From: Candidatus Kaiserbacteria bacterium
Lineage (GTDB): Bacteria; Patescibacteriota; Minisyncoccia; Phycocordibacterales; Phycocordibacteraceae
Direction of reading: 5' to 3'
Assembly: GCA_029288865.1 (NCBI GenBank)
Contig: JARIGM010000023.1
Location: forward strand, 67,039-109,778
DNA: 42,740 nucleotides
Part shown: positions 36,488 to 42,740 of the stretch, in pieces
How the letters are laid out: the number at the start of each line of letters is the position of its first letter
Position numbering within the stretch: the stretch's first letter is position 1
The notes under the pieces: model-generated
The model's input: only the letters and a program-made list of their open reading frames with translations
Databases searched by the model: none
Told to the model about the DNA's origin: nothing
Program-made: the position numbers and the translations under genes

Positions 36488-37051
36488 TTATTGACCTGGC
36501 TGCACGTTTACTAATTCAACTTCAAACACGAGCGTTGAGTTCGCAGGAATCGAGCCGATCGCTTGCGCTCCATATCCCAGCGATGCAGGAATGATAAGCT
36601 CGCGCTTGCCTCCCACCTTCATACCGGCAACTCCCTGATCCCATCCTTTAATTACTTGACCTGCTCCCAGCTTGAACGTAAACCCGGTGCTTCCATGATT
36701 CGCAGAGGCATCAAACACCTGCCCATTCGTGAGCATTCCGACATAGTTCACCGTTACCGTGTCTCCAGCTTTCGCTTCAGCACCCGTACCGACGACCATG
36801 TCCTTTCCCATCAATTCGGTTACGTTCGCTGGTACATTGGGAACTGAGCTCGTTGCTGCTGTCTGGTTATTCTGATCGTCCATAGTTGTTGTTACTGGCG
36901 TATTAGGTTGCGTCGTCGCAGCTGCTTGCGTCGACGTCTGATGGTTAAATAATGAAAATATCGCAGGCCCGAAGAATAGCAATCCGCCGGCGATAAGCAC
37001 GGCGAGGGCGACTGCGATTCCGACTCCCGTTACGTTCATTTGTTCATTCAT
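36488..37051 (-). CDS. Membrane-anchored FKBP-type peptidyl-prolyl isomerase
   Basis: 187 residues from ATG 37049-37051. An N-terminal TM helix (about 8-29) is followed by a Thr/Gln/Asn-rich linker (about 33-72), then a complete FKBP domain: GDTVTVNYVGMLTNGQVFDAS, FKLGAGQVIKGWDQGVAGMKVGGKRELIIPASLGYG and the C-terminal LVFEVELVNV. Family active-site residues (Tyr, Phe-Asp, Val-Ile, Trp, Tyr) are there, so activity is likely. It is held outside the membrane to fold secreted or envelope proteins. It follows the small helical protein gene by 7 bases, placing it at the end of the secretion-like operon. Confidence 0.92.
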   Translation of the reverse strand: MNEQMNVTGVGIAVALAVLIAGGLLFFGPAIFSLFNHQTSTQAAATTQPNTPVTTTMDDQNNQTAATSSVPNVPANVTELMGKDMVVGTGAEAKAGDTVTVNYVGMLTNGQVFDASANHGSTGFTFKLGAGQVIKGWDQGVAGMKVGGKRELIIPASLGYGAQAIGSIPANSTLVFEVELVNVQPGQ

Positions 37052-37058
37052 ATTGGTA

Positions 37059-37352
37059 TTAATTTTCTTTCTTCGCAAGTAGATCACTTTTTAGATCATC
37101 CATGGTTTCGCTGAGCAACTTGTCCAGATTCTTTACGTGAGTCTTGAAAAAAGCTCCTACCTCTTCATCAGATGGATCTCGTTCGAGCATGTGCTCGAGT
37201 TCTTCAGCTTTTGAATCATCAAGATTTTCAAGAATACGTATCAATGTCTGCTCAAACGCAATATCGTCAAGCTCCGAAAGGAGTGATTCCTGTTCTTCAA
37301 CTGGCAATGCGTCCATTTCGAGCGCACGGATGAGATCGGTTTGTGTTGTCAT
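37059..37352 (-). CDS. Small acidic helical protein, paralogue A
   Basis: 97 residues, rich in Glu/Asp/Leu and predicted all-helical. It aligns over its whole length with the 104-residue protein encoded at 39934-40248: shared pattern DL-AL-L--L-QESLL-EL-D-, T-IR, SDEE/SEEQ, F-K-HV---DK-L--T and L--D-LA. It resembles a small CPR family (possibly DUF5663; I am not certain of the number). It is encoded 2 bases after the 814-residue gene and 7 bases before the FKBP gene. It may be a partner of the large protein before it, since each copy follows one large protein (inference). Confidence 0.7.
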   Translation of the reverse strand: MTTQTDLIRALEMDALPVEEQESLLSELDDIAFEQTLIRILENLDDSKAEELEHMLERDPSDEEVGAFFKTHVKNLDKLLSETMDDLKSDLLAKKEN

Positions 37353-37354
37353 AA

Positions 37355-39799
37355 TTAGAATATTTCTTTCGCGCCTGTTACTGAAGGGATCTTCCCTGGA
37401 TACGGATCTAGATGATTAAAAGTTCCTCCATTTATTGCTGAGGTGTAATACGAGACATAGTTCGAACTCTTGCCTTGGATGATGACCTTCACGCTATCAT
37501 TGCCAGCTGCATATTGCTGCAAGAGGAAGTTCGCAAGATATCGTTCCGATTGGTCGTCCCCGCCGCGCACCACAAACTCAGTATCACTGACTTGATAGAC
37601 AGAAGCTGGATCCGATTGATGATTCGCAATTGCTTCCTGAGCACGCTGTACATATGCTTCGGACGTTTCTCCGCCATTTGGAGTAATTCCGGATGCGCAA
37701 AGTACCTTGAAGAGATCCATGCGGAACGCATTACTAGGATCCGAAGGATTCGAACTTCCTGGCTGATCAAGAACATCAGTCGCAGGTGCTCCCTTGAAGG
37801 TTTTCCATGTCGAGGATTCTCGCATTGCGTCAATGCTCGGGATTCCAGAAGTAGCACTCGCCTCTGCTGACGTAGCAGGAGCTGCAGCAGTTTCTAACAC
37901 TGAGGCCGACGCTGCTGGCGCTTGGGTTACGGTCTCGGTGGGATTAAACGGCGATTGGCTGGGGAACGCGGGTTTGCCTTCGGTCTGTTCTCTATCCAAG
38001 CGAGCAGCGATTTCATTCGGATCAATTGAAAGTGGGTTGGTTGGCCGCGTGGATGCGGTTTCAGGAATCGGATGACCGGCTACTTGCTCCTGATTCGCGC
38101 GAGCAGTTTCGGCGTTTGCTGCTGCTTCGCTTGTATCATTCGCTGGTGCAGCAGGCGGCACATTTTCAGTCTTGTACTTCACGCTCATCGAGCGGACATG
38201 GTACGGCGATTCGGGCATCGTTGCCGGAGCAGTAGCCACGACTGGAGCAGGCGTCGGCGCTGGTGGTACCTCACGCGGAGACGGTGCTGCAGCAGGTGTT
38301 TCTGTCGTAGCTGCAGCCGCGGTACGATAGGCAGCAGTTCCTTGACCCCACTTAATTTCGGCTCCCTGCGGCATATGCACGCCCAGCTTTTCGCGGAGCT
38401 GTTCACGATGCGTTACCACGTGAGTAGCACCTTTTTCCACTTGCAAGATCGTCACATCCTGCGGACCGCGATGCTTATCAACTCGATGGAAGATCAGGCT
38501 GGTACCATTAAATTCGAGAGAATCGCCTGGCTGCATATACCCTTGCGCATTATTGAGAGGGAAACCAAGTTGTTCGGCAAGAAGATTAGGATCCTTGTGC
38601 AGAAGCATTTTGCCAAAGTCTGTGTTTTCAATACCGCTCACATGTTTCAGGCTCTGCTGCATCTGATAGATAAGTTCGCCTGCGCCTTGTCCTTCCTTGA
38701 GCTCGAATTTCGCTCCCGGTATCTGTACGATTGGTCGTTCCATTGATGCCTGGGGACCTTTCTTGATTGCATCAAGTCCTGGCAACTTCCGTTCCGCTGT
38801 TGGTTGCTGATTAATCGGTTTCAGTTGCTGCAAAGCATCGATTCCGACACCGAGAGGTGCTGGTCCAGATGCGATAGCCAAACCAAGCGCCAACAAATCG
38901 CGCTTCTTACCTTTAAACGATTTTGCCATGATAGTGTCATGCACCGATTTCTGCGCAGGGCCGAGCTTTTCGGCTCGAGCTTTGTTGCGACCACGCAGCA
39001 TACCAAAGAATGCCAAGATGCGCTCCATTATTGTCTTTTTCTTTTCCTTGCTCTCGGTTTTCGGCTGAGGTTGCGTTTCCGCGTTGGTTTTTTTATGGGG
39101 ACCGAATTTTGCGACAACAGCAGAAAGTGTCTCCCACCATTCTTTTTTGGATAATTTCTCGCGAAGAAGCGGGCCGTGCTCAAGCGTCTGATTCAACAGA
39201 TCCTCCTTTGCTGGATGCGTTTCAATCTTAGACTGATTTGATTCTTCATGTACCGGACGAACGAGTGGCGCAAGCTCTGACCCTTTATCCCTAACTATAA
39301 TATCTCTTCCTGGTGGTTTAATATTTTCATCATTATTTTTCAGCACAAAATCGGTACCCGGAACTAATACGAATCCTGTACTCGGTGCAGGGTGCTTTTC
39401 GGCCGGGATTGCCTCTTGGGGGACAAGGTCTACACCTGACTCTTCTCCGGCTCCGGCTTGCGGAACATAGTCCACGGCGCCATAGGAATCATTCCCGGCG
39501 CTAAACGCAGGCAATTCGGAAGCCTGTACCCAAGGATCGTGAGCGATTGCTTGAGCTTGCTTTTCAAGAGTACCCTTCTTTGGTCCGTATTTCTTTGAAG
39601 CTGGTCTTAAACGTGATTTTCTTGTATTTCCAGCAGCCTTCTCTTCTTTTCGCTTTACAAAATCCGCCTGCGCAGCTTCTATTGCTTTGTTCCTATTCGG
39701 ATTATTGTGAATCTTGCTGTTGGGATTAACCGGAGACGGCCTTGATTCCTGTTTCTCGGGGGTCTTTTTTGGAGATGGAGGACTGTTAAAACTTTTCAT
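37355..39799 (-). CDS. Large low-complexity protein of the VirD4-associated locus, 814 residues
   Basis: Start ATG 39797-39799 with TATTCT six bases upstream. The N-terminal about 85 residues are very basic and Pro/Asn/Lys-rich. A basic segment around 250-300 (KEKKKTIMERILAFFGM, then RNKARAEKLGPAQKS) precedes a weak hydrophobic stretch (about 301-322). A folded-looking part at about 350-470 contains GYMQPGDSLEFNGTSLIF, reminiscent of LysM-type strands. Residues about 490-700 are a Pro/Ala/Thr/Glu-rich linker, and a compact C-terminal domain spans about 705-814 (FRMDLFKVLCASGITPNGG, VYQVSDTEFVVRGG). No known family. It shares the NKARAE motif region with the 536-residue protein upstream. A scaffold or surface-linked role is a guess. 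Confidence 0.6.
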   Translation of the reverse strand: MKSFNSPPSPKKTPEKQESRPSPVNPNSKIHNNPNRNKAIEAAQADFVKRKEEKAAGNTRKSRLRPASKKYGPKKGTLEKQAQAIAHDPWVQASELPAFSAGNDSYGAVDYVPQAGAGEESGVDLVPQEAIPAEKHPAPSTGFVLVPGTDFVLKNNDENIKPPGRDIIVRDKGSELAPLVRPVHEESNQSKIETHPAKEDLLNQTLEHGPLLREKLSKKEWWETLSAVVAKFGPHKKTNAETQPQPKTESKEKKKTIMERILAFFGMLRGRNKARAEKLGPAQKSVHDTIMAKSFKGKKRDLLALGLAIASGPAPLGVGIDALQQLKPINQQPTAERKLPGLDAIKKGPQASMERPIVQIPGAKFELKEGQGAGELIYQMQQSLKHVSGIENTDFGKMLLHKDPNLLAEQLGFPLNNAQGYMQPGDSLEFNGTSLIFHRVDKHRGPQDVTILQVEKGATHVVTHREQLREKLGVHMPQGAEIKWGQGTAAYRTAAAATTETPAAAPSPREVPPAPTPAPVVATAPATMPESPYHVRSMSVKYKTENVPPAAPANDTSEAAANAETARANQEQVAGHPIPETASTRPTNPLSIDPNEIAARLDREQTEGKPAFPSQSPFNPTETVTQAPAASASVLETAAAPATSAEASATSGIPSIDAMRESSTWKTFKGAPATDVLDQPGSSNPSDPSNAFRMDLFKVLCASGITPNGGETSEAYVQRAQEAIANHQSDPASVYQVSDTEFVVRGGDDQSERYLANFLLQQYAAGNDSVKVIIQGKSSNYVSYYTSAINGGTFNHLDPYPGKIPSVTGAKEIF

Positions 39800-39816: not shown

Positions 39817-39933
39817 TTATGACAAATATTTTGTCCGGGTCATGTCTTTAATGGTAGCACGGCCACGGCCGCATAAGAGGTGCGACATGCGGTTTTCCAC
39901 ACCTAAAATAAGGAACGTCAAAGCTCGGCCCAG
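39817..39933 (-). pseudogene. Decayed 3' fragment of a VirD4-like ATPase gene
   Basis: The frame just after the stop at 39934 reads, at its end, GRGRATIKDMTRTKYLS followed by TAA. This matches the true C terminus of the ATPase at 41872, GRDRATIENMIRTKYLS and TAA. Over about 70 bases (39820-39891 against 41875-41946) I count roughly 83 percent identity. Upstream of that the similarity fades and there is no start codon or rest of the gene. It stands before the 814-residue gene just as the real ATPase end stands before the 536-residue gene. It is the trace of a tandem duplication. Confidence 0.75.
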
Positions 39934-40248
39934 TCACTCCACATGTTCTTTGCTGGTTGTTGCCAGTATGTCATCTCGTAACTCTTCGATGGTGTCCTGC
40001 AGGGCTTTATCCGCATCTGGAACATGCTGCTTTATGAATCCGTCGATCTGCTCCTCAGAAGCCTCTGTATCCAAGAGTTTCTGGAATTGAGTCAGCGTCG
40101 GCTCGTCCATGAGCGCAATAAGTCGAATCATAGTTCCCTGCGTGATGAGGTCTTCCATCTCAAGGAGGATACTCTCTTGGTCTGTGGGTGAGAGCTCCTC
40201 GAGCTGGAGGGCTTTCAGAAGATCGTCTTGATGGGGAGAGAGGGACAT
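39934..40248 (-). CDS. Small acidic helical protein, paralogue B
   Basis: 104 residues, homologous along its length to the 97-residue protein at 37059-37352 (shared QESILLEMEDL, TMIRL, SEEQIDGFIKQHV and the TIEELRDDILA pattern). It is all-helical and acidic, with no TM segment. It begins 4 bases after the 536-residue gene and its stop is in frame with the ATPase remnant. Position and homology suggest one small protein per large protein in each copy of the module. Function unknown. Confidence 0.7.
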   Translation of the reverse strand: MSLSPHQDDLLKALQLEELSPTDQESILLEMEDLITQGTMIRLIALMDEPTLTQFQKLLDTEASEEQIDGFIKQHVPDADKALQDTIEELRDDILATTSKEHVE

Positions 40249-40252
40249 ACGA

Positions 40253-41863
40253 TTATGTAGTTATATCAGCTTGTAACATGTCTTCGCGTGCGTCGATGTC
40301 GGCTGGATGCTCCGAACCTTCGTAATAATGATGGGATTTCTCGGCTTCAGTAGCGTTCGCGATGTGATGCACGGCCGTGCTTAGATGCTCATGAGCATCC
40401 TTTGCGTCGTCAACCACACCTGCCGCATGCTCTGCCGAACCTGCGACGGATGTTGCGTGCTCGATCAGCGCTTCAGCTTCGCCGCCACCCACCAGCGCCA
40501 CGAGTTCTTTGACAGGAGCGAGATTTTCAAGAGCTGAGGAAGAGAGGATGCGTCCTCCGAGAAAACCAGCAGCGATAGTAACCCCGGACGTGACCCAGGC
40601 GGTCTTTCGATCGAGAGTATCTTCACTCGCTCGAGATTCAAGTTTCTTATACTCTTTATCCTTCTTCGAGAGGTCATTAGGAGTCCATGATTCGAGATCT
40701 CCATAGTTGGAGATCTTCTTTTGGGCATCCTGCTGCGCTTCTTGTCCAATGAATTTTTTATAGCCTGCTCCGGCGCCCTCTCCGACGGCGGCTGACGCCA
40801 CACCCATTGCCAGGCTCTTTGCAGAGATGAGGGCGATGAGCACGCCAGTCACAGGAAGACTTCCCGCAGTTGTCGCCGTAGTCCCTCCCACGATGGCAGA
40901 CGCGATCAGTACCGACCGAAGCACTTTGCCGACTCGCGGACCGATTTTCAGCGGCACCTTGTCCATGAGACCCTGAATATTTGATCCGAGACGATTGAGC
41001 GTAGAGGCAAGTTTTCCGAATCCGAGCTTCTGGACATAACTGAATCGTTCTGCTCGCGCTTTGTTATTTTGCTCCAAGAAGTTCTTGGTTAGCAATACGC
41101 GCTCCATGGCAACCTCGCCTTTTACTTTCTGTCGCGCTTCAGGAAGCCCGAATTCTTGTTCCAGTCTCGTTCGAAGATCCTCGATCTCAACATCTGAGAT
41201 GCTCTCATTTTTCATGCGGGCTTCACGAAGCAAAGCATATACCTGTTCCTGCTTTTCCTCTATCTCAACACTCTTCTTATCTTCGAACTGCCGTAGGAAA
41301 TTGAGACGAGCAGCATAATACTCATCCTTAAGCTTATTCAGCTCGACTGATTCTTTCGTCTTGAAAAGTTCCCGCCGCGAGCGCTCGAATGGATTTACCT
41401 TAAGATGCGCCGCATACGCCTCGAGATATTTGTTCTCAAAATTCTTATACGCCCATCGTTCGTCCTGCATGCGCTCCGCTCGACGCAGGCTCTGGATCTG
41501 CTTATCGCTTTTTCCGAGCTCCGCATTTTCTTTACGCCACGCCTCTGCACGAGCCGTCGGGGTGGAAGCTTCAGGGTTATCGCCAAACATGAGCTTTGCC
41601 CGCGCCATCAGCGTTTCGAAACGAGCCCTGCTCTCCGGACCTGCCTTGCCAGATGCAAGGACGCGCTCCATCGTTGGACTAACTGTATTGAAAAGCTCCG
41701 CTTCCCTGTCCAGTTTTATCTTTTCGAGCCGAGCAGTATCCTCTTCCTGAGTTTCCGAAAGCTTTTCTTCCTTCTGCTTTTCATGAAAAGCATCAGTCTT
41801 CATGCGCCGCTGCTCATCCTTGGGCGCACTGTTTTGCGGTAGCTTATCAAAAGAAAATGCCAT
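40253..41863 (-). CDS. Coiled-coil membrane protein of the VirD4-associated locus, 536 residues
   Basis: The N-terminal about 300 residues are highly charged and helical, Lys/Glu/Arg/Gln-rich coiled coil (RRAERMQDERWAYKNFENKY, IEEKQEQVYALLREARMKNE). Then come hydrophobic segments at about 315-336 and 338-360 (VLRSVLIASAIVGGTTATTAG, VTGVLIALISA) and a further one near 425-447. The C terminus is His/Glu/Asp/Ala-rich (HLSTAVHHIANATEAEKSHHYY). It contains NKARAERFSYVQKL (267-280), similar to NKARAEKLGPAQKS in the 814-residue protein. No family recognised. It starts 8 bases after the ATPase stop, so it is cotranscribed with it. Confidence 0.6.
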   Translation of the reverse strand: MAFSFDKLPQNSAPKDEQRRMKTDAFHEKQKEEKLSETQEEDTARLEKIKLDREAELFNTVSPTMERVLASGKAGPESRARFETLMARAKLMFGDNPEASTPTARAEAWRKENAELGKSDKQIQSLRRAERMQDERWAYKNFENKYLEAYAAHLKVNPFERSRRELFKTKESVELNKLKDEYYAARLNFLRQFEDKKSVEIEEKQEQVYALLREARMKNESISDVEIEDLRTRLEQEFGLPEARQKVKGEVAMERVLLTKNFLEQNNKARAERFSYVQKLGFGKLASTLNRLGSNIQGLMDKVPLKIGPRVGKVLRSVLIASAIVGGTTATTAGSLPVTGVLIALISAKSLAMGVASAAVGEGAGAGYKKFIGQEAQQDAQKKISNYGDLESWTPNDLSKKDKEYKKLESRASEDTLDRKTAWVTSGVTIAAGFLGGRILSSSALENLAPVKELVALVGGGEAEALIEHATSVAGSAEHAAGVVDDAKDAHEHLSTAVHHIANATEAEKSHHYYEGSEHPADIDAREDMLQADITT

Positions 41864-41871
41864 ACGTGTTC

Positions 41872-42740
41872 TTACGACAAATATTTTGTCCGGATCATGT
41901 TTTCAATGGTGGCACGATCACGGCCGTATGTGAGATACGACAGCTCGCGCAGGTCGTCTATCTGATCAGGATTTCCAGGGCCCAGATCTAATGTCTTGAT
42001 ATTAAAGGGTTTTTGCGGCACACCTCCTGCGAGGATGCGCACATAGGCGTTGCGGTTTTCGACATTAATGAAATCGGGCGCATCGAAAACCGGTGCGAAT
42101 TGCTTCGCAAAGAATTCACCATCCTCTTCACCCACGCGGAACACTGCCATGGACCCCACGTTTCCAAAGACTGCATCACGAATCTTCTCATCTATTTGCG
42201 CGAGGTACTGGTGAGCAATCGTAAGAGAAAGTTTGTACTTTCGAGCCTCCGAAAGAATACCTGGGATGGAATCTGTGGTGATGTTTTGGAACTCGTCGAT
42301 ATAGAAATAGAACGGCGGGAAGTTTCCGCGCGGATTATCCGCTCGGGAAAGTGCTGCCATGAAGAGCTTGCCGACGAGAATGAGACCGAGTAAGTTCGCA
42401 TTGCGCTCACCAAGACGTCCTTTCGAGAGATTCACGAGCAAGATCTTCTTGGTATCGATGACATTACGGAAATTGAACGATGAATTCTGCTGACCGATGA
42501 TCGGACGCATGAAGTCGTTTGCTGTGAAGTCGTCAAACTTGTTCGTGATGTACGGCACAATATTCTCGAGTGATGCATCGCCGCCTGCCTTCGTCGCGAT
42601 CTCGTTCCAGAACTGATTCACGACCGGATTCAGACTGCGTGAGAGTTTAAGTGCGCGGAAATTCGCATCGGACAGCACGCGTGCGATATCCATCATGGTC
42701 GAACCCGTTTCGGGATCTTCCATCACGAGCAATGTCGCAT
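41872..42740 (-). CDS. VirD4/TraG-like (type IV secretion coupling) ATPase, N terminus beyond the right edge
   Basis: Only the C-terminal 289 residues are seen; the frame continues to the window edge, so this is partial and the first visible Leu is not the start. The Walker B and following segment FYFYIDEFQNITTDSIPGI, ARKYKLSLTIAHQYLAQI (the Gln-containing sensor helix of HerA/VirB4/VirD4 ATPases) and GNVGSMAVFRVGEEDGEFFAKQF are clear. KILLVNLSKGRLGERNANLLG is another family block. These proteins are hexameric DNA or protein pumps at the membrane. In CPR they usually carry a DUF8128-like membrane module at the N terminus, which would lie outside this window. The C terminus YGRDRATIENMIRTKYLS is duplicated at 39817. 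Confidence 0.85.
   Translation of the reverse strand, partial: ATLLVMEDPETGSTMMDIARVLSDANFRALKLSRSLNPVVNQFWNEIATKAGGDASLENIVPYITNKFDDFTANDFMRPIIGQQNSSFNFRNVIDTKKILLVNLSKGRLGERNANLLGLILVGKLFMAALSRADNPRGNFPPFYFYIDEFQNITTDSIPGILSEARKYKLSLTIAHQYLAQIDEKIRDAVFGNVGSMAVFRVGEEDGEFFAKQFAPVFDAPDFINVENRNAYVRILAGGVPQKPFNIKTLDLGPGNPDQIDDLRELSYLTYGRDRATIENMIRTKYLS

Follow-up and report, generated by a model that had tools for sequence, protein, structure and literature searches.

Tandem L and DUF5663 genes and a copied ATPase tail beside a VirD4-like ATPase gene in a Candidatus Kaiserbacteria genome

How did a locus that in most relatives holds one large (L) and one small (S) protein gene beside a VirD4-like ATPase gene come to hold two of each, with a piece of the ATPase gene between the pairs? 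We address this question for a 42,740-nucleotide stretch of DNA (the window), which lies at the end of contig C3 in an 842-kb genome assembly of Candidatus Kaiserbacteria. In the direction of transcription, the gene order is the ATPase end, a 536-residue protein (L1), a 104-residue protein (S1), a remnant of the ATPase gene, an 814-residue protein (L2), and a 97-residue protein (S2), as a preliminary description of the window had stated. The ATPase is incomplete because the window stops at the contig end, inside the gene. The features are as follows:

41872..42738, minus strand: C-terminal 288 residues of an ATPase of the VirD4/TraG-like coupling type (Pfam TraG-D_C); gene cut by the contig end
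40253..41863, minus strand: L1, 536 residues, the membrane half of the family (TM1_2 profile), with the C-terminal half missing
40562..40975, minus strand: TM1_2 domain of L1, residues 297-434 (profile)
41027..41107, minus strand: NKARAE block of L1, residues 253-279 (BLAST, window-shuffles)
39934..40248, minus strand: S1, 104-residue acidic helical protein, DUF5663 (PF18908)
39888..39922, minus strand: possible extra decayed ATPase sequence upstream of the remnant (suggestive in shuffles)
39817..39887, minus strand: remnant, a copy of the ATPase 3' end with the same stop codon (nucleotide match)
37355..39799, minus strand: L2, 814 residues, with MID and CT domains (profiles)
38948..39028, minus strand: NKARAE block of L2, residues 258-284 (BLAST, window-shuffles)
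38492..38692, minus strand: MID domain of L2, residues 370-436 (profile; folded in the model)
37460..37735, minus strand: CT domain of L2, residues 689-780 (profile; model fold of high confidence)
37059..37352, minus strand: S2, 97 residues, DUF5663-like (homology to S1)
36488..37087, minus strand: FKBP-type isomerase, right-hand neighbour of the module (PF00254, E 2.4e-33; synteny), with one membrane segment predicted from hydropathy

Two partial modules and a copied ATPase tail

When the whole genome was searched, the remnant (39817-39887) aligned with the ATPase 3' end over 71 nt with 83% identity (E 7e-15; E 4e-17 in a local comparison), and its score was reached by none of 1,000 dinucleotide-preserving shuffles. 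Both sequences terminate in R-T-K-Y-L-S-stop. The match of about 83% over 70 bases and the shared TKYLS-stop ending reported in the preliminary description were thus reproduced. Over 66 coding nt, the remnant is 82% identical to its own ATPase and at most 65% identical to the tails of relatives (53 tails in the comparison set; those of L043 and L045 were out of register and disregarded), and the own ATPase tail is itself at most 73% identical to those tails. Because the remnant is nearer to its own ATPase than to that of any relative, it originated once this lineage had separated from the sampled species. A search for a second ATPase tail downstream of the ATPase in 82 loci, including the window, detected no such copy in the 81 others, four of which gave only chance-like matches of 18-31 nt (E 0.002-0.005). 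The possibility that the fragment is a separate element conserved in relatives, raised at the outset, was therefore not borne out.

The 12 differences between the remnant and the ATPase are split 4/4/4 over the codon positions; 11 are transitions, and several alter residues kept in nearly all relatives. The even split indicates that copying and loss of constraint started together, favouring the own gene as the source. Since the codon positions changed equally, whereas the two ATPase alleles described below differ without any amino-acid change, the remnant evolved unconstrained. By these comparisons, it is a fragment of the genome's own ATPase lineage, without constraint since copying. The differences are unevenly placed: the 42 nt at the start contain 11 and the final 24 nt a single one (Fisher p 0.043). 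This pattern may reflect some constraint close to the L2 start, or a recombination tract that ended here. The 46 nt between the S1 stop codon and the remnant also align with the ATPase, at scores reached by 17 and 25 of 1,000 shuffles, and have no similarity to the sequence downstream of S2 (631 of 1,000 shuffles). The alignment is only suggestive of further ATPase sequence with a deletion.

The small proteins are homologous, in agreement with the preliminary description (31/90 identical, 34%; 62/90 positives; E 3e-19). S1 scores above the cut-off of 23.7 bits for DUF5663 (PF18908) with 24.6 bits, and S2 just below it with 21.4 bits. The S1 model has five helices (mean pLDDT 85), and the protein is acidic, with 25 D/E against 7 K/R. 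The genome holds these two DUF5663 genes and no others. At the DNA level, no similarity above chance was detected between the two L-S modules (best E 0.63).

We delimited the L family by the presence of CC, TM1_2, MID, and CT in one protein. Domain profiles were built from 49 relatives, with the window's own proteins excluded, since E-values computed with these among the rows are inflated; G019, G029, G113, and G121 were left out because their loci have no L. In a control set of 757 sequences the best E was 0.033. L1 matched TM1_2 (E 6.9e-10) and CC only at E 0.033, and L2 matched CT (E 1.9e-10) and MID (E 1.4e-3). By profile search, TM1_2 was not found in L2, nor MID or CT in L1. As neither combines the N-half with the C-half by profile, we call both partial members of the family.

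Only 102 residues follow TM1_2 in L1, versus 314-546 in 14 complete relatives, and MID or CT is found in the same protein as TM1_2 in 12 of the 15 relatives having TM1_2. Among the three others, L181 is truncated where its contig stops; in L128 and L156, TM1_2 is followed by about 500 residues in which neither MID nor CT was detected. By domain content, then, L1 has lost its C-terminal half. L2 has a single predicted membrane segment shortly before MID. Its N-half may have been lost, or may have diverged beyond recognition, since TM1_2 is undetectable in the L of many relatives as well.

Similarity between L1 and L2 in the NKARAE region, which the preliminary description had pointed out, is weak yet above chance: BLAST aligned 27 residues at 48% (E 0.003), and the local alignment score was reached in 3 of 500 window-shuffles. 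In domain trees, the relatives that group with TM1_2 of L1 and with MID and CT of L2 are partly the same, though support is weak. The profile comparison called for in that description thus assigns both proteins to one family architecture, but the parts retained differ, being the membrane half in L1 and the C-terminal domains in L2. No other L pieces were found in the genome.

The model of the L2 C-half has two folded domains linked by a long disordered stretch. Neither L1 nor L2 matched any Pfam or NCBIfam family at a trustworthy score. Likewise, the L proteins of relatives matched no Pfam family except for an N-terminal DnaJ domain (E 2.9e-20) in that of L180 (L180:6265-10515, 1417 residues). 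Foldseek returned no match at E 0.001 or better for S1 and the L2 C-half, the best VIA-align Z values for the two (4.6 and 6.0) were at uninformative levels, and sequence searches of solved structures yielded nothing below E 0.03. The MID part matched 2gu1 (VIA Z 4.5, rmsd 3.0, 77 aligned) and ShyA chains (Z 3.4-3.5) weakly. We take a LysM/OapA-like wall-binding domain as a lead for MID, with fold scores too low to trust.

The locus in relatives

The locus was compared across metagenome-assembled genomes of Candidatus Kaiserbacteria and other Paceibacterota/Parcubacteria. The ATPase search of the genus gave a match in 91 of 92 genomes; in G032, G033, G043, G111, and G122 the best match was only a second type, about 42% identical. 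We mapped 91 distinct ATPase loci, including the window and the end of contig C5, and 72 of these reach the FKBP gene. The usual order is ATPase, L, S (DUF5663), and FKBP, often followed by tgt and uvrB. One L with one S is present in 58 of the 72 loci, neither in 10, and L without S in three; two L with two S occur in one, the window. The synteny comparison proposed earlier thus gives the single module as the usual state and the doubled module in the window only. The locus is a conserved chromosomal single module in Kaiserbacteria, and the tandem is specific to this lineage. The 10 loci without L and S indicate that the ATPase can persist where the module is missing. L141, L144, L147, and L165 are among these, with the ATPase before FKBP.

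L is hypervariable: species with ATPase C-terminal parts about 87-98% identical as proteins mostly share 24-53% identity in L. At ATPase DNA identities of 0.83-0.88, nearly all listed pairs have L at 24-53%, with one exception at 74%. In the pair with an ATPase four-fold-site identity of 0.80, identity is 94% for S and 70% for L, and at four-fold identities of 0.5-0.67 most listed pairs have S at 57-87%; the lower values of 43% and 51% both involve L180.

FastTree trees of the ATPase and of S, restricted to loci having both, conflict for L203, L137, and L054. In L203 the ATPase belongs to one clade, and S as well as the architecture of L go with the other, a hint of module exchange. In approximately unbiased (AU) tests, agreement was not rejected (p 0.396, 0.174, and 0.341), and module exchange between clades was accordingly dropped as proof of acquisition.

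A second ATPase sequence, the upstream part (813 residues), lies at the end of contig C5. The terminal 583 bp of C3 (window 42158-42740) and of C5 (L039:1-583) overlap and are 91.4% identical, with perfectly matching stretches of 116 and 28 bp at the two ends. The 50 differing positions among the 583 are all synonymous, and 59 of 91 four-fold sites are identical, a species-like synonymous distance. These alleles are from either two strains or two gene copies.

Origin of the doubled module

The explanation that we consider best, and to which we give about an even chance, is a tandem duplication of the L-S pair within its own lineage, followed by partial losses in L, with a copy of the ATPase tail decaying between the pairs. 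L1 would have lost its C-terminal half, and L2 would have kept the C-terminal domains while its N-half was lost or greatly changed; the copied ATPase 3' end would have decayed without constraint where it now sits. We infer this order of events from the structure of the locus, its uniqueness among the sampled relatives, the domain content, and the decay pattern of the remnant, all of which were observed.

The age of the tail bears on this explanation. The remnant has K 0.21 substitutions per site (0.10-0.38), and its faster 42 nt alone give K 0.32, with an upper limit of 0.62. In simulations of unconstrained change, K 0.21 leaves S at about 66-68% identity and K 0.38 at 48-53%, and K 0.62 could take S down to 34-40% if it had no constraint at all. 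The tail thus appears too young for the divergence of S1 and S2; as it is short, the argument is strong yet not final. S shows clear signs of constraint (62/90 positives), so that the separation of S1 and S2 most likely preceded the copying of the tail. Under duplication within the lineage, an extra event, conversion or a second copying, must therefore be assumed. In one version the duplication would be old, and gene conversion with the ATPase 2 kb upstream as template would have refreshed the tail later; in the other, a second and younger event would have copied the tail.

Several points weigh against duplication within the lineage. The clock, with a tail at K 0.21 beside small proteins at 34% identity, demands the extra event just described. 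A tree constrained to join S1 and S2 as sisters was 35 likelihood units better than the tree from the free search; their sisterhood, which the AU test does not reject (p-AU 0.873), may be a product of long-branch attraction, and free trees group L156 with S2. If the N-half of L2 has diverged instead of being lost, its retention would also count against this explanation, and the role proposed below for L is drawn from neighbourhood and hydropathy.

A possible but clearly less probable course is the entry of a diverged L-S module, brought in from a different strain or species through recombination with its anchor in the ATPase gene. The old tail would have been displaced and would survive as the remnant ahead of the resident L2-S2. 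The modules would have differed before they came together, accounting for a species-level difference between S1 and S2 beside a young tail. The hypervariability of L and the disagreement of the ATPase and S trees at L203, L137, and L054 are consistent with such an entry, as are the two overlapping ATPase alleles of C3 and C5, which place related DNA in the assembled sample or genome. However, a donor of another species should have added third-position differences to the tail, whereas the observed split is 4/4/4; the tree conflicts are not significant; and S at 34% would be out of the ordinary for a closely related donor, the sole pair at a four-fold identity of 0.80 having S at 94%.

The preliminary description proposed one tandem duplication of the ATPase, L, and S, after which one ATPase was lost and the large proteins diverged strongly; in this reading both L and S would have diverged rapidly. 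The gene order with its remnant and the homology of S1 and S2 are in line with this history, and its two tandem modules and own-lineage ATPase-tail fragment were confirmed. Nothing shows that a second full ATPase existed, as a copy of the tail alone suffices, and L1 and L2 retain different domains instead of diverged versions of the same ones. Moreover, a single duplication followed by divergence conflicts with the clock, as S has diverged by more than the age of the tail allows even in the absence of constraint. As a whole we consider this history, which is right in part, very unlikely.

A chimeric join of the loci of two strains during assembly is suggested by a contig end 2.8 kb from the junction and by the second ATPase allele at the C5 end, but such a join would leave the decayed tail unexplained, and no join-causing sequence common to the S1 end and the flank of the remnant was seen, making an artefact highly improbable. 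Least credible of all is a small integrative element, L1-S1, inserted at the ATPase 3' end with the displaced 3' fragment left behind: the duplicated 3' end with one difference in its last 24 coding nt versus 11 in the preceding 42, and the absence of the module from 10 of 72 loci, could be read in this way, but the 1.9-kb unit holds L1 and S1 only, with no integrase or other gene, and L-S is the normal resident at this place in 58 of 72 loci.

A possible membrane partner for the ATPase

The window's ATPase part matches TraG-D_C (PF12696) at 28.3 bits (cut-off 22), and the part on C5 matches DUF87 at 26.9 bits (cut-off 23.2) and TraG-D_C at 24.3 bits. In 71 of 72 full-length ATPases, no 19-residue stretch with hydropathy of at least 1.6 is present within the first 480 residues. 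The ATPase is classified as VirD4-like only, because it does not have the classical N-terminal transmembrane domain, and its sequence fits the coupling-protein subgroup without a membrane domain. In the mapped stretches we noted no gene for a relaxase or a channel, although no profile search aimed at such genes was made.

Coupling proteins without a membrane domain exist, and in pIP501 TraI is the likely anchor of TraJ, according to PMC7434980 and PMC13037476. The ATPase resembles type IV coupling proteins (VirD4/TraG-D; TraJ/TraI of pIP501 and TraG-TraJ pairs) in combining TraG-D_C with DUF87, and those without a membrane domain in having no strongly hydrophobic N-terminal segment and a membrane protein encoded beside it. 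In contrast, L (about 530-1400 residues) is far larger than the small partners that those papers describe. Since the ATPase is anchor-less and L is encoded next door with predicted membrane segments, L is a natural candidate for its membrane partner, and by analogy may be one. L would anchor the ATPase to the membrane or couple it there, and S would act as a partner on the cytoplasmic side; the L C-half is presumably outside the cell and S1 in the cytoplasm. In the window, the membrane part and the C-terminal part of L may come from separate proteins, each followed by an S. That the membrane partner has in fact been split into L1 (membrane) and L2 (C-terminal, probably outer), each with its own DUF5663 protein, the tail being kept similar by gene conversion, we regard as rather doubtful.

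Duplication with complementary loss of parts is a known evolutionary concept. The two L copies resemble it in keeping different parts and differ from it in that loss is clear for L1 only. With respect to DUF5663 (PF18908), the window has two tandem copies, and the other 71 loci reaching FKBP have at most one. In Patescibacteria, 5,713 VirD4 homologues are reported in 2,918 genomes, 148 of them near virB4, in the accessible text of PMC12102498. The ATPase described here is likewise a chromosomal gene among housekeeping genes, but that text does not mention an L-DUF5663-FKBP neighbourhood. A limited literature collection contained nothing on DUF5663, on conjugation or secretion in Kaiserbacteria, or on gene duplication together with type IV secretion systems in Patescibacteria. 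The doubled module is a lineage-specific rearrangement at a conserved locus, of which no earlier description was found in that collection.

The doubled module is a genuine evolutionary curiosity, if a modest one, at a poorly known locus that resembles a secretion locus. VirD4-like ATPases, abundant in Patescibacteria, are mostly encoded at a distance from virB4 (PMC12102498); one of them now has a fixed neighbourhood (L, DUF5663, and FKBP) across the genus, and the window offers a natural case in which the ATPase's membrane protein is present as two partial copies. It leads to a testable proposal: L would anchor the ATPase, and its membrane and C-terminal parts may be able to act as separate proteins.

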